From Gammaproteobacteria bacterium (GTDB lineage Bacteria > Pseudomonadota > Gammaproteobacteria > GCA-001735895), in contig JAAEMR010000257.1 in NCBI GenBank assembly GCA_024225395.1, positions 1 to 64,000 of the forward strand: 64,000 bases of DNA. Direction: 5' to 3'. A model generated the notes under the pieces. The model was not told where the DNA came from and made no database searches. It saw nothing but the letters and a program-made list of their open reading frames with translations. Position numbers and translations under genes: made by a program. This document shows, one piece after another, positions 19,788 through 27,014 of the stretch (positions are counted from its first letter, which is position 1; every line of letters begins with the position of its first letter).

Positions 19788-19825
19788 GACTATTTATTCT
19801 TTTCAAAGAAATTTAAATATTAAAG

Positions 19826-19992
19826 GCATTCACCACGAAGACACGAAGCGCACGAAGAAAAAAATTATTATTAATAACGTATTCAACTAAATAATTTTCA
19901 GCAAGGTTGCACTTGATAGTCAATTTTCAGAATGACTTGAAACAAGTATTAAATATTCCTTCGTAATTCTTCGTACTTTGGTGGTGAATGCT
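19826..19992. repeat. CACGAAG inverted-repeat element, copy B (guaC-DUF5062 gap)
   Basis: The left arm (19826-19857) reads GCATTCACCACGAAGACACG and continues with further ACGAAG units. The right arm (19959-19991) read on the opposite strand gives GCATTCACCACCAAAGTACG followed by AAGAATTACGAAGG. The arms therefore match over about 30 bases with a few differences, and an AT-rich interior of about 100 bp separates them. This is the clearest copy of the family in the window. Confidence 0.85.
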
Positions 19993-19996
19993 TTTT

Positions 19997-20233
19997 TTAT
20001 TTTAACCTGGATGCCCAGATTGCCAGTTTATGCTTCATCGATAACTGCGATATCTGATCTTCTGGAACGGGTTGAATAACCTTGTCATGAACCAGTAAAC
20101 GGTAGATATACTCAATTTTTTCACTGGCAGAGTCGGTCGCTTCAAACTCAACGACTCCCCTCCCTTCGGCATATTTTACGCCTTCAACAATGGCCTTTTT
20201 AACCAGTTCTTTTTCATTCTTAAGCTTTTTCAT
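19997..20233 (-). CDS. DUF5062 family protein
   Basis: A 78-aa basic protein starting MKKLKNEKELVKKAIVEGV with KIEYIYRLLVHDKVIQP and the ending MKHKLAIWASRLK. This pattern matches my memory of DUF5062, a small cytosolic protein widespread in Vibrio, Shewanella and related gammaproteobacteria, with no known function. AGAGGA precedes the ATG. It lies 36 bases downstream of the kinase gene on the same strand and could be in its operon with the TPR response regulator. Confidence 0.75.
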   Translation of the reverse strand: MKKLKNEKELVKKAIVEGVKYAEGRGVVEFEATDSASEKIEYIYRLLVHDKVIQPVPEDQISQLSMKHKLAIWASRLK

Positions 20234-20269
20234 ATCCTCTCCACTATGGAAACAGCTTTATAATTATTG

Positions 20270-20950
20270 TTATGGCAATGTAATCTGAAAACTACCACCA
20301 TTCAACAGTCCATCGTTGCTTAAATGAATACTTCCCTGCCTGTCTGACCGATGATGGTTATGCGCAATGGTCGCCGAAAAAAACAGTCCCAGGCCTGTAC
20401 TACCGGTACTGTAATTTACTTTTTTAATAAATTGGTCAGGATTTTCAATCATATTTTCAGGATAACCTGGGCCATCATCATCTATTTGAATAACCAGGTG
20501 ACCTTCAACCACCTTTACCGAAACAATAACCTGTTTTCCGGTATAACGGATACTGTTTCCAAGAATATTTTTAATCGCAATTCCAACCATATCCTGATCA
20601 AAAAACCAGATGATAGAATCATCACAATCAACCTCTAATTGAATCCCGTTATTCTCAGCCAGCAGAGAATGAGTAGCAATACAGTCTTCAATAAAGTCGA
20701 CGACTTCAACTTCAGATATCTGTATAAAAAGTTGATTATTCTCCAGCTTGTATAATGTTAATAGCTGCATCAGAGACTGGTTTATTCTTGATGATTCGTA
20801 TCGAATACTGGAAACAGCCTGTTGGTTTTCACTGCCTACTTCAAGTCGAAGACTTAAATTATCCAGCTGCCCCATCAACAGGCTTAAAGAGTTTTTCATG
20901 TCGTGTACCGTTGAAGCCAGTACAGTTTCAAATAAGGATTGCTTACCCAT
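20270..20950 (-). CDS. Soluble sensor-less histidine kinase
   Basis: A 226-aa kinase consisting of only a dimerisation/phospho-acceptor helix pair (STVHDMKNSLSLLMGQLDNL, H-box) and a HATPase domain (N-box NILGNSIRYTG, G1 IDDDGPGYPENM, G2 STGLGLFFSATIAHNHH). No membrane segment or sensory domain is present, so it must receive its signal from another protein. Its start overlaps the end of the upstream TPR response regulator gene by eight bases. I infer that the two form one pathway, with the TPR regulator as partner. In length and layout it resembles kinases that act in chemotaxis-like or phosphorelay modules. Confidence 0.85.
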   Translation of the reverse strand: MGKQSLFETVLASTVHDMKNSLSLLMGQLDNLSLRLEVGSENQQAVSSIRYESSRINQSLMQLLTLYKLENNQLFIQISEVEVVDFIEDCIATHSLLAENNGIQLEVDCDDSIIWFFDQDMVGIAIKNILGNSIRYTGKQVIVSVKVVEGHLVIQIDDDGPGYPENMIENPDQFIKKVNYSTGSTGLGLFFSATIAHNHHRSDRQGSIHLSNDGLLNGGSFQITLP

Positions 20951-22538
20951 TCTTCACCCGTTCCAGTAGCTTTTGATAACGTTTCCAACGAATATCAGAT
21001 TCATCCATATGGATTTTCTCCTGTAGATAATGCATGGCCTCTTTGACTGTTTCAGGATCGGAGTTCAACTCTTTATATTCAATGATGATCTGCGCTGCAT
21101 TTAATAAATAATTGATATTATCCGGTAAAATTTTAATGGCTTCCCTGAATTTTATTAATGCTTCCAGGTGATGCCCCTGTTTTGAAAGTTGAATACCTTC
21201 TGCATTAGCTTTTTTCGCAATAACAGCCTGGCCAGGTGCTTGCTTTTCAACTTTAATCTCCTGGTTAATGATATCTATGCGAGATGAAATCTGATCAAGG
21301 TATTTATCAGTCGACTTTTCCTGTGCAAAGGACTTCATATTTTTAGAGATAGTATCGGCCTGCTTTTCTGATAATTTACATTCAGGGTTTTCCAGCGTTT
21401 TAGTTAGCTTAGAGAGTATTGCACTGGCTCTATCTGACCTGCCGGCGGAAGAAAACAATAAGGCGACTGAACTCAGATTTGCAGCCATTGCTGTTGGATC
21501 ATTTTGATAGGCTCTCTCCATTTTTTTATACACGGTTTCTGTTTGAGCCAATATCTTTGACAGCTCTCTTCCCTTTAATTTGTTGACTACCTCACGAGAA
21601 TTATCGTAATAATGTTCGAAGTGCTGCGGTCGTTGCATGCAGGAATAAGTCCCTTCATGAATTGTTTTTTCAAAAGCCTTTTGTGCCAGTTCATAATTAT
21701 TTAAAGAGGCAGCAACTGTTCCCAGAGTCGCCTGGCGCATCACCGATTTAGGTGAAATCGCAACGGCTTCTTTGAGCGTTTCCTCGGACTTTTCTATCTG
21801 ACCCAGTTCATTCTGACATTTTGCTATCCAGTCAAGCAAGCTAACCTGACGTGAAAAAGTTTCTTGCATTGACAGAAAGTGTTCCAGAGCTCTGGGCACA
21901 TCTCCAGTCTTAAAATAAAGGCGACCGAGTCCCACCATAGCCCATAAAACGGGCTGCTCATTTATAACTTCATTATATAAAGCTAACAACTCATCATTTC
22001 GTCCAGTTTGATCAAGTAGTTCCGCTTTGATACGCAGGCAGGAGTATTTCAGTTTAGGCGTCTCAGTTATAACTGCATCACAAGTTTCAATAGCTTTGGT
22101 TAATTGACCGGCATTTATAGCTATGTAAATATTATTTAAAGCCGTGTTTTTCAGGATTAACCTTAATAATCGTTGCCCAAGTTGCTCACCGGTAAAGGGT
22201 TTGGTCAAATAGGAATCGGGTCGGTATTCAATGGCTCCCATCACCTGAGCCGAAGTTGTCTCGGCCGTCACCATAATAAAAAGAGCCCCTTTACGCATTA
22301 AGGAACGCTGATGTAACTCTTCTAGAATTTGGTGACCGTCCTGGCCATCACCCAGGTTATAGTCGCAGAAAATAATATCGTAATCTTCTTCGCTACAGCG
22401 TTTGACGGCCTCGCTACCATTGCTGGATTGATCGATATGCTGTGCACCTAAACGGCCAAGCATTGTTTTTATTGTTTGTCTGAAACCCGCAAAATCATCG
22501 ATAACAAGAATTTTTGACTTTGATAAAAGATTAAACAT
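20943..22538 (-). CDS. Response regulator with long TPR output domain
   Basis: A 531-aa protein. Residues 8-128 are a receiver domain (acidic pair DD14-15, phospho-acceptor Asp59 in FCDYNLGDGQDG, Lys in LTKPFTGEQ). The rest is a chain of TPR-like helix pairs (for example MVGLGRLYFKTGDVPRALEHF, ATLGTVAASLNNYELAQKAF, and SKQGHHLEALIKFREAIKI near the C-terminus). There is no DNA-binding or enzymatic output domain, so phosphorylation probably switches protein-protein contacts. Similar receiver-TPR proteins occur in Shewanella, Vibrio and Pseudomonas, but I do not know a defined role. It overlaps the kinase gene. Confidence 0.88.
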   Translation of the reverse strand: MFNLLSKSKILVIDDFAGFRQTIKTMLGRLGAQHIDQSSNGSEAVKRCSEEDYDIIFCDYNLGDGQDGHQILEELHQRSLMRKGALFIMVTAETTSAQVMGAIEYRPDSYLTKPFTGEQLGQRLLRLILKNTALNNIYIAINAGQLTKAIETCDAVITETPKLKYSCLRIKAELLDQTGRNDELLALYNEVINEQPVLWAMVGLGRLYFKTGDVPRALEHFLSMQETFSRQVSLLDWIAKCQNELGQIEKSEETLKEAVAISPKSVMRQATLGTVAASLNNYELAQKAFEKTIHEGTYSCMQRPQHFEHYYDNSREVVNKLKGRELSKILAQTETVYKKMERAYQNDPTAMAANLSSVALLFSSAGRSDRASAILSKLTKTLENPECKLSEKQADTISKNMKSFAQEKSTDKYLDQISSRIDIINQEIKVEKQAPGQAVIAKKANAEGIQLSKQGHHLEALIKFREAIKILPDNINYLLNAAQIIIEYKELNSDPETVKEAMHYLQEKIHMDESDIRWKRYQKLLERVKNG

Positions 22539-23531: not shown

Positions 23532-26500
23532 CTATTCCATCGGGTCAGCACCCAGCGTGCCAACCAGCTCCTGTAAATAGTCAGTTTGCGAAACCTGTTG
23601 TAATTTATCATTTGCAACATTTAGCTGTTCAGAAATTTTCAGCCGCCCTGCTTCGTCAGCATGACTTTCTCGTTCAAGAAAGTCAGTCAGGTAATCGATA
23701 TGACGCTGCCATAATGCCATGTCCCGTTGCTGTTTCACCTGTAAACGTTTGTTGTACCAGTCAGAAGACATCATGCCTTCACGAGTAAACAGCGCACGAA
23801 TATCAGGATGATGCACATCTTTTCCTTCATATTCACCTTTCGCCATGATAGTTATCAATGCCTTAAGTGGAGGACAGGCCTGATCGATAGAGCCATCCTC
23901 AAGATAAGTACTGGCCACTTTTTGCTGCGCTTCAACGATATTGTTTATGCCATCGACAAAATCATCCATATTCTGGGTTTCAGGCTGTAGAATTTTCTCA
24001 TCGAAAACAACCGACGGATTATCAAAAATCTTACCGAAGAAACCGTGCACAAACAGGTTAGTGATGCGATAACCGAGTCGACTGGCCAGAACTGTTTGAC
24101 CATTATGTTCAAAGTCTTCCAGCTTTTCTAACTGACCTTTGTTGATCAGGTAATCAGGCCGTCTCTTTTCAGGTTTTAACTGAGCCCAGATTTCAGGAAT
24201 AATCAAACTAACATCATGATTGACCCTGATGTGAGGACCAACATATCCAGCTGCACTACTGAAACCAGAGTAATCCGTCAAAATATAGGAAACCAGTGCA
24301 TTGTTTAAATCCGCTGTCGGCAACAGAGCGTTGAACGGCCCTTTGGTTAAAGCGCCCTCAGAACCTGCCCCGGTGGTTGATGGTGATTTACCAGTAAGAC
24401 TGCAAATAAAATCCATAAACAGCTCAGGTAGCTCCTGGTAATGAATCGGGTTATAAACGGCCAGAGAGCGAATACCGGCTGCCGCATCGGGCGGGTTATT
24501 TCGACGCCCGGTTAATACCGAATCAACAGGAAAGCAAATGGGTTCGTCTAAAGTTGCTCGGCGATGAAAACGAGCACTGGTTTCAGCCAGATGTAATTTA
24601 ATCGGTTTGGCCAGATCGGAGCGTAACTGTAGATAACGTGGATTTTTACTGGGCTTACCATCAACAATCAATGGATGAGCAGATGACACGGCAGTTTTTC
24701 CATTCTTCAGACTATCCAGTAATAAATCACGCATCGGTTTTGTATACAGGTCAAACTCGACCTGGTCTTCAGTAATTTCTTTCAGGTCATCTGTCGTCAA
24801 TGGTTGATAGTTAGCCACAAAATTATCTGGCAAGGCCATTTCCATCTCTGTCTGTTTATCGAACCCTTTAATAATGGCGTCATCGGGGCGCTGGAATAAA
24901 CGGTATTCACAATTCTTTACCAGCTTGATGCATTCATGGGTGTTTTTTTCCGGCATATTCACCAGTCTTTTCGCAGGTACGACAACGGATGCGCTGATAT
25001 CGTCTTCCATCTGTACCTTCTCTGCGACCACATAATCCTGACGCAGTTTATAAATACGCCAGGCAGAATTTTCATCAAAACCCATGCGTAAATAGGACAT
25101 ATCCAGCATTCTATCCTGGAACTTTAATTCATGACCCTGTACACCATCAACCATATCGACAGTAAAATACTTCTTCCAGTTATCACCCCATTCTGAGCGA
25201 TAAAAACGTTTGATCATGAACGCCAGTGCCTTGATAGATTCAGGAATGCTTTCTACCCATTCATTATATTCCGGCGTAAACTTTTCTTCGGAAGGCGTGA
25301 GCATCTTGATCATCGAGCCCAGGCTTCGTTTCATACTTAACGGTGAACGTGGAGGATTATCGGTATAATCCGGCTGAAACTCACTTTTATAACGATGAGA
25401 ATAATCATTATCAAAAAGGCTCTGCACCTGTTGCAATGATTTATCCAGTTCATTCACAAATAAGGGACCAAAAATAACTGCATCATCAATCGCTTTGGAA
25501 ATTTCAGATTTTCCACCACCGGAAACGGTACAGGGTTTATGACAGAATGTGCCTTCAGCATCTGTACCCACGATTTGCCAGGAAGGTGCTTTAGGATGTT
25601 TTTCCATGGCAATTTTATAACCACTGGGATGCATGTAAATCAAACCGGGTTTCAATTTAATCGTGGTTGTTTTGCCTTCCTGTTTCCAGCTAACAGTTTG
25701 TTCATTTAGGTCCATTTGCAGGTTTTCAGGAACATATAATATTTGCGGGTAATTTTTATCGATGGCATAGCCTTCTTCCTGCAGTTCCATCATGTCGCCA
25801 TATCTTTTCAGTACTTCTGAAAATTTATAATCAGTATTTTTAGTGCGTGTATCACGCCCAAACTCTTCACCATGATTATGCCGTGGAAAAGCCAGTGCAC
25901 CACCGGAATGCTCCTCTTCAGCCAGGCCAAACAGGTTTGCTGCGAAACTAATCTGAGTTTTAACTTCTTTTTTACAATAACCAAAGTAGTTATCCGCCAC
26001 GATAGTAACGATAACGCCTCTTTTATCTCTCGCTGTAATTTTAAATGGCTGGCCACCATTGTATAAATCATCTTCCTGCTCCCAGCACATGCCATCCCGT
26101 TTCTGTCTTTCAGTGGCATTTTCGATATCTGGCAGTCCCAGGTCTTTTTTCTTCATGTTGACCAGGTGTGGCGCCAGAATGACGCAACCGGTATGACCGG
26201 ACCAGTGTTGAATATCCAGACCCGCATCATTTTCAGCAAGGGTCGGGTTACCCGCATTTCCAAAAATACTTTCAACAAAATCCAGGTTACTGGTTAAACT
26301 GCCCGGTGCAAAAAAACGAACTTCCATGGTTTTTTCTGGTTCCGTTTTAGTCGCATCAAACGATGGAATTTCCGGGCAAACAACAGGACGAAGTAAACTG
26401 GATACAAAACTTTGAGCTTTAACTATCTGTTGTGACGTAAATGGCAGTGTTAACAGTTTTTCAGGAGGGTTTAACGCTTCCTTCAATAAATTGGCATAAG

Positions 26501-27014
26501 CTATTTTGGGCACAGATTTTTTGTCACCCGGAATAGGTAAACCACCTTCAGCAATATGAAATGAACCCGCAGTAGTACGTCGATCGCGAGACGTATTATG
26601 TAAAACGCCCTGACTCACGCGAAAACTTTTCACGTATTCAGATTCAAAATAATCATCATCGGCCGGTAAGGACAATTCACGCGCAACACCATGACGATCG
26701 AGGATTAAGGTATTTGAAGGCAGTACCGGTGTTTCCTCGATTCCACTGTCTTTTAGATAAGAGTCGAGAAAGTCCTGAATTCGCTGATCTGCTGGACAAA
26801 GGTATTGTGATAGCAGCCGGGATTTTTCTCTATAGCTCTGTAACAGATCATCAGCTATAGAGAAAAATTCATTGCCACAGTCCATAGATTCACAGGCCGG
26901 TAAGCCCGAAGAATGTAACTTAAGATTGATATAAAGTTGTAATCGCTTTCTCTTCTCATCGGCTTCTACACGGTCGTTAGATGTCATTAAGCCAATTGAT
27001 TTTGATAAATCCAT
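23532..27014 (-). CDS. Probable PPi-type phosphoenolpyruvate carboxykinase
   Basis: A 1160-aa cytosolic protein without signal or membrane segments. Several stretches fit my recollection of the pyrophosphate-dependent PEPCK family (about 1100-1200 aa, known from Propionibacterium and Entamoeba): a phosphate loop-like CTVSGGGKSEISKAIDD near residue 497, IVADNYFGYCKKEVKTQISF followed by AANLFGLAEEEHSGGALAFP, and GHTGCVILAPHL. That enzyme interconverts oxaloacetate plus PPi with PEP, CO2 and phosphate. The gene diverges from the type III glutamine synthetase gene, sharing a 490-bp control region, so carbon and nitrogen supply may be co-regulated. The name rests on memory of motifs; a conserved protein of unknown function is the alternative. 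Confidence 0.6.
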   Translation of the reverse strand: MDLSKSIGLMTSNDRVEADEKRKRLQLYINLKLHSSGLPACESMDCGNEFFSIADDLLQSYREKSRLLSQYLCPADQRIQDFLDSYLKDSGIEETPVLPSNTLILDRHGVARELSLPADDDYFESEYVKSFRVSQGVLHNTSRDRRTTAGSFHIAEGGLPIPGDKKSVPKIAYANLLKEALNPPEKLLTLPFTSQQIVKAQSFVSSLLRPVVCPEIPSFDATKTEPEKTMEVRFFAPGSLTSNLDFVESIFGNAGNPTLAENDAGLDIQHWSGHTGCVILAPHLVNMKKKDLGLPDIENATERQKRDGMCWEQEDDLYNGGQPFKITARDKRGVIVTIVADNYFGYCKKEVKTQISFAANLFGLAEEEHSGGALAFPRHNHGEEFGRDTRTKNTDYKFSEVLKRYGDMMELQEEGYAIDKNYPQILYVPENLQMDLNEQTVSWKQEGKTTTIKLKPGLIYMHPSGYKIAMEKHPKAPSWQIVGTDAEGTFCHKPCTVSGGGKSEISKAIDDAVIFGPLFVNELDKSLQQVQSLFDNDYSHRYKSEFQPDYTDNPPRSPLSMKRSLGSMIKMLTPSEEKFTPEYNEWVESIPESIKALAFMIKRFYRSEWGDNWKKYFTVDMVDGVQGHELKFQDRMLDMSYLRMGFDENSAWRIYKLRQDYVVAEKVQMEDDISASVVVPAKRLVNMPEKNTHECIKLVKNCEYRLFQRPDDAIIKGFDKQTEMEMALPDNFVANYQPLTTDDLKEITEDQVEFDLYTKPMRDLLLDSLKNGKTAVSSAHPLIVDGKPSKNPRYLQLRSDLAKPIKLHLAETSARFHRRATLDEPICFPVDSVLTGRRNNPPDAAAGIRSLAVYNPIHYQELPELFMDFICSLTGKSPSTTGAGSEGALTKGPFNALLPTADLNNALVSYILTDYSGFSSAAGYVGPHIRVNHDVSLIIPEIWAQLKPEKRRPDYLINKGQLEKLEDFEHNGQTVLASRLGYRITNLFVHGFFGKIFDNPSVVFDEKILQPETQNMDDFVDGINNIVEAQQKVASTYLEDGSIDQACPPLKALITIMAKGEYEGKDVHHPDIRALFTREGMMSSDWYNKRLQVKQQRDMALWQRHIDYLTDFLERESHADEAGRLKISEQLNVANDKLQQVSQTDYLQELVGTLGADPME

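Follow-up and report, generated by a model that had tools for sequence, protein, structure and literature searches.

A gammaproteobacterial contig (JAAEMR010000257.1) carries a run of three genes that raises the question of how a histidine kinase with no sensor of its own receives a signal, and which of its neighbors work with it. The window analyzed here is the whole 64,000-nucleotide stretch of that contig (positions 1 to 64,000). The first gene of the run, RTPR (20943-22538, minus strand), encodes a 531-aa protein consisting of a receiver and a TPR array, as judged by Pfam and the predicted structure. The second, HK (20270-20950, minus strand), encodes a 226-aa protein that, on the same two grounds, is a histidine kinase core only, and the third (19997-20233, minus strand) encodes a 78-aa protein that Pfam assigns to DUF5062 (PF16691). 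The stop of RTPR and the start of HK overlap by 8 nt (ATGGGTAA; 20943-20950, minus strand), and 36 bp separate the HK stop from the DUF5062 start. An earlier note on this DNA had described the same layout and had proposed that the three genes act as one unit; both the coordinates and the Pfam matches agree with the layout.

RTPR matches the Pfam model Response_reg at 1.3e-18 along with many TPR models. Its receiver spans residues about 8 to 130 and contains all of the expected residues, namely the acid pair D14/D15, the phospho-acceptor D59, T91 and K113, and a TPR-type helical array continues from there to residue 531. An AlphaFold2 model (pLDDT of 92.1) likewise shows a receiver followed by an all-helical, TPR-like part that extends to the C-terminal end, and a fold search with it returned TPR superhelices in general. 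Conservation extends through the whole TPR part, where W199, D236-W237, S262-P263, R268, N445 and N480 are invariant or nearly so among 25 sequences. We found no DNA-binding output domain in RTPR, either among the Pfam matches, which after the receiver are TPR models alone, or in the predicted structure. The proposal that the output is not DNA binding is thus borne out.

HK matches HisKA at 3.8e-06 and HATPase_c at 8e-12, and two more related ATPase models fall under their cut-offs. Its motifs comprise H16-D-M-K-N20 in the DHp domain and N132, D158-x-G160-x-G162 and G188 in the ATPase domain. These are conserved almost without exception among relatives (H16 in 118/118, N132 in 117/118, D158 in 117/118 and G188 in 118/118). 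Taken together, the two proteins hold what is expected of a two-component system: a receiver with an acid pair, an Asp, a Thr/Ser and a Lys, and a kinase with a His and ATP-binding motifs. In the AlphaFold2 model of HK (pLDDT of 86.5), whose fold matches the kinase cores of ZraS, CusS, CpxA and HK853, the first DHp helix starts at residue 6, and therefore there is no space for a sensor or a membrane anchor. Neither Pfam nor the model revealed a sensor domain or membrane segment within the 226 aa of HK, which confirms the description of a kinase consisting of a DHp and an ATPase domain alone. Since the relatives of HK are almost all 210 to 284 aa long, the exceptions being two run-on open reading frames, the HK family as a whole goes without a sensor and anchor, and the gene in the window is not a truncated copy.

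We surveyed 369 genomes of the class for the three genes, counting HK at strong scores (E of 1.4e-33 or better), and found RTPR in 45 genomes, HK in 39 and DUF5062 in 76. The HK gene directly adjoins RTPR on the same strand in 34 of the 39 cases, every one of them ordered RTPR and then HK. In the remaining five, one HK is linked as well (G249, where the contig starts inside the RTPR that precedes HK), two are cut off by contig ends (G043 and G133), and two are unlinked to RTPR (G381 and G347). A scan of named genomes yielded at least 562 RTPR relatives, and HK adjoins RTPR in 78 of the best 80 of these loci, two of which are contigs of genomes G005 and G008 from the window's own family. The carriers among these 80 include Pseudomonas, Halopseudomonas, Hahella, Aliikangiella, Chromatiaceae, Sedimenticola, Massilia, Chitiniphilus, Nitrospirae MAGs and others. 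When 191 distinct RTPRs were examined, 124 of them proved to have a same-strand HK within 400 bp, and in a separate count that holds a few duplicates HK lies downstream of RTPR in 114/123 paired loci. Within the window's family, the pair is present in eight genomes (G000, G001, G003, G005, G006, G007, G008 and G010), and in families f140, f199 and f203 HK is not beside RTPR. The conserved unit is thus the RTPR-HK pair, which is small and widespread, and the kinase is nearly always linked to RTPR rather than usually to other regulators. RTPR is often present in several copies, numbering two to four in many genomes. A divergent pair (HK at 121.7 bits) also occurs on a MAG contig labeled Klebsiella pneumoniae (L141), a label that looks doubtful.

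RTPR and HK are real genes, as the pair is found again in over 100 loci. The gap between them is mostly -7 to +43 bp, start/stop overlaps or gaps of less than about 45 bp being usual; the longer overlaps reflect, at least in part, where the ORF caller placed the start codon. The 8-nt overlap in the window suggests translational coupling of RTPR and HK, and DUF5062 is probably co-transcribed with them in the window's genus. A promoter and terminator scan of the three-gene region returned sites no more common than in shuffled sequences. Two features flank the run. On one side, DUF5062 is separated from guaC by a spacer of about 180 bp (19815-19995) that has inverted ends (GCATTCACCAC/GTGGTGAATGC) and CACGAAG repeats and gives 35 matches within its own genome, all partial except for itself; the corresponding spacer is just about 26 to 33 bp in G001 and G007, and the 180-bp version looks like a dispersed repeat that was inserted recently. 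On the other side, upstream of yebC, a 1160-aa open reading frame (23532-27014, minus strand) has no Pfam match at an E of 0.1; G007 carries a relative in the corresponding position (L008).

We then compared the phospho-acceptor of RTPR between loci with and without the kinase. Asp59 is present in 123/124 HK-paired RTPRs, the exception being a broken open reading frame that lacks the receiver part, and it is missing from 23 of the 62 kinase-less RTPRs that have room for a neighbor (Fisher 7e-12, with related sequences counted singly). Kinase-less paralogs in which Asp59 is replaced by Gly, Ser, Ala or Glu include those at L174, L177, L178, L180 and L183, and further substituted copies are found at L187-L189, L210, L221, L222, L226, L228, L229, L231 and L236. 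On a tree of 184 RTPRs built without the columns under test, HK presence changes eight times and the state of Asp59 seven times. All seven Asp59 changes fall off the HK-paired branches, which account for 66.1 of about 120 length units (a rough chance of 0.004), and a stricter independent-pairs test on the tree had six pairs, too few to reach significance. In family f140, where HK lies between cysB and a membrane protein gene in eight genomes and was not found in five, an RTPR with Asp59 is present in 8/8 genomes with HK and in 0/5 without it (p of 0.0008, with related genomes counted singly and one to four RTPRs examined per genome). The sole RTPR examined in G723, one of the f140, f199 and f203 genomes, has Glu at position 59. 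Loss of the phospho-site is thus confined to RTPRs with no kinase next to them. This pattern, the f140 counts and the linkage of the two genes make it very probable that HK supplies the phosphate to RTPR. Kinase-less RTPRs keep Asp59 in 39/62 cases, which indicates that RTPR is usable without HK, perhaps with other kinases. Those in f104, f117 and f184 keep it, and other phosphate donors must therefore exist there.

The reading that we favor, and consider likely, is that RTPR and HK would form a soluble two-component pair in the cytosol, with protein contacts serving for both input and output. HK would autophosphorylate at His16, and the phosphate would pass from there to Asp59 of the RTPR receiver, with the overlapping genes presumably holding the two proteins at matched levels. 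Without DNA binding, phosphorylation of RTPR may alter the interaction between its TPR array and a client protein. Lacking its own sensor, HK would have to receive its input by protein contact, and its activity might be set by the TPR array or by a protein encoded elsewhere. DUF5062 would be unrelated to the pair and merely downstream of it in one genus. Several observations speak against this reading: the kinase-less RTPRs that keep Asp59, the lack of significance in the independent-pairs test, the separation of HK from RTPR in f140, f199 and f203, the Glu at position 59 in G723, and the missing receiver-DHp signal in HK-RTPR covariation.

A finer version of this explanation holds that the TPR array gates HK, so that RTPR or its TPR-bound client would be the sensor and the regulator would control its own kinase in a closed loop. 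Almost no HK in the loci has space for a sensor, RTPR is the sole partner conserved with HK, and the TPR part is conserved throughout its length, all of which speaks for such a gate. However, when 118 pairs were analyzed for covariation with a reduced alphabet, TPR-HK residue pairs were not in excess among the top 20, 60 or 150, and HK and RTPR are unlinked in f140. The same analysis placed the true pairs above three shuffles at the 40th rank (4.8 vs. 3.4-3.5) with no enrichment of any domain and no receiver-DHp signal among the 118 pairs, and HK-RTPR mutual information was swamped by invariant columns. With no domain standing out, the covariation does not bear on the docking of the TPR part to the kinase that the earlier note suggested, and 118 pairs are too few for such an analysis. 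We regard gating by the TPR array as a tentative possibility.

An unlikely alternative is that HK acts chiefly as a phosphatase that drains RTPR, which would be loaded by other cellular kinases. N20, four residues beyond H16, occupies the position of the Asn/Thr that HisKA kinases need for phosphatase activity, and the 39 kinase-less RTPRs that retain Asp59 are presumably loaded by something else. Nonetheless, almost every one of the 118 HKs retains its ATP-site motifs, and Asp59 is missing in f140 where HK has been lost, as expected if HK is the donor.

We also looked for a third gene that might supply the input. Clustering the neighbors of the 80 loci revealed no conserved third gene, only neighbors bound to particular lineages, and no conserved sensor gene lies beside HK; RTPR alone is conserved there and the other neighbors vary by lineage. 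Reading the translations by eye, we found the gene after HK to encode, depending on the lineage, an ABC transporter, ribonucleotide reductase, ParA, an acyl-CoA-synthetase-like enzyme, an HrpA-like helicase, CDGSH proteins or others. Near cysB, and often after HK, lies a gene for a membrane protein of about 255 aa with a single membrane pass and a KKKW end (L090:9383-10159, plus strand; L266:902-1672, minus strand; and relatives); the two copies tested have no Pfam match. Input from a lineage-specific membrane protein of this kind, encoded next to HK as in Kangiellaceae-like loci, would agree with the presence of the KKKW gene after the pair in 10/80 named loci and after the unlinked HK in 10 genomes of f140, f199 and f203, and with a different coiled-coil membrane protein gene after a kinase-less RTPR in L062. 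That gene (L062:706-1410, minus strand), whose product has one membrane segment, replaces HK after one of the three RTPRs of G267. Against this, the KKKW gene keeps its place next to cysB in four genomes that lack HK (G174, G699, G701 and G749), was not found in the eight pair-bearing genomes of the window's family, and gives way to quite different genes after HK in most lineages. Since it stays beside cysB where HK is gone, the KKKW gene is a neighbor of cysB; we rejected its product as a partner of the pair, and input by such a route appears quite improbable.

Two further sets of neighbors were taken as local gene order rather than as partners. One is a DGCcoil-GGDEF protein whose gene ends 11 to 88 bp before RTPR in three Sedimenticola loci (L107, L126 and L131, the domain assignment by Pfam being for the L131 copy only), and the other comprises receiver-SpoIIE and STAS proteins near the pair in Kangiellaceae-like loci.

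The small protein downstream of HK is a clear member of the DUF5062 family, matching PF16691 at 4e-34 with 117 bits, where the curated cut-off is 27, and this family has a solved structure (2m4e). The earlier note had put it forward as a candidate partner and had named beforehand an unlinked DUF5062 in relatives as a finding against its proposal, and that is what the genome survey returned. The other half of that condition, a kinase usually linked to other regulators, was not borne out, as HK almost always adjoins RTPR. DUF5062 lies within 20 kb of HK in 1/39 HK-bearing genomes of the class, this one being the window's own, and blastp with the window's protein found it in 0/80 further loci. 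It follows the pair in three of the eight pair-bearing genomes of the family (G000, G001 and G007), which are three species of one genus that keep the order RTPR-HK-DUF5062-guaC. G006 has it on a separate contig, and no copy was found in G003, G005, G008 and G010 (completeness of 82, 79, 98 and 96, respectively), all of which carry the pair. Conversely, 15 genomes from a different genus of the family carry DUF5062; they have no full-length RTPR match, and their HK matches are weak or absent. In the class as a whole, 57/76 DUF5062-bearing genomes have no RTPR, and no neighbor is common to 30 DUF5062 loci. DUF5062 and RTPR do occur together in 19/369 genomes against 9.3 expected if they were independent (hypergeometric 3e-4, not corrected for descent). 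We therefore rejected a three-gene RTPR-HK-DUF5062 module on its linkage: DUF5062 is a self-standing small protein and a local neighbor, or bystander, downstream of the pair in one genus. That it docks to the TPR array or the kinase as a third partner is very improbable in the face of these counts, the gene order kept in that one genus and the excess of shared genomes notwithstanding. This takes DUF5062 out of the RTPR-HK pathway. The description of a compact, undescribed signaling module thus holds for the RTPR-HK pair, which is conserved and for which no description was found, and fails for DUF5062.

A search of the available literature found no description of the RTPR-HK pair or of DUF5062, and the pair is apparently undescribed. 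HK shares the DHp and CA fold and the H box, N, G1 and G2 motifs with orthodox HisKA systems such as those to which the ZraS, CusS, CpxA and HK853 cores belong, and like theirs its gene neighbors that of a receiver protein. It differs from them in lacking a sensor, a HAMP domain and a membrane part, and RTPR differs from orthodox regulators in having a TPR array in place of a DNA-binding domain. H-NOX-associated kinases are soluble kinases whose sensor acts in trans. By analogy, HK would work as they do, as a cytosolic kinase regulated by another protein, although no single sensor gene recurs beside HK. RTPR can also be compared with the Rap phosphatases, which are not known to have a receiver, whereas its own TPR array is fused to one. 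Rap phosphatases resemble RTPR in being TPR proteins that act on two-component phosphate flow by protein contact (PMC3035606). Response regulators that combine a receiver and TPRs in one chain, as RTPR does, appear as rare REC-PAS-TPR or TPR-TPR-TPR-REC architectures in a table of an archaeal census, which there gives no paired sensor-less kinase for them (PMC5847659).

The RTPR-HK pair is a real, widespread variant of the two-component system. It matters because it involves a regulator with at least 562 relatives and, as the usual sensor and DNA-binding output are both missing, it is a clean case for control of a kinase core by protein contact. Lineages that lack both the kinase and Asp59 offer a natural experiment on the regulator without phosphate. 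A bolder and rather doubtful proposal is that the pair represents an undescribed and widespread class of two-component system that has no sensor and no DNA output, and in which the TPR array would serve as both the input gate of HK and the output. If so, such a system would measure the state of the cell's protein complexes rather than a small ligand.
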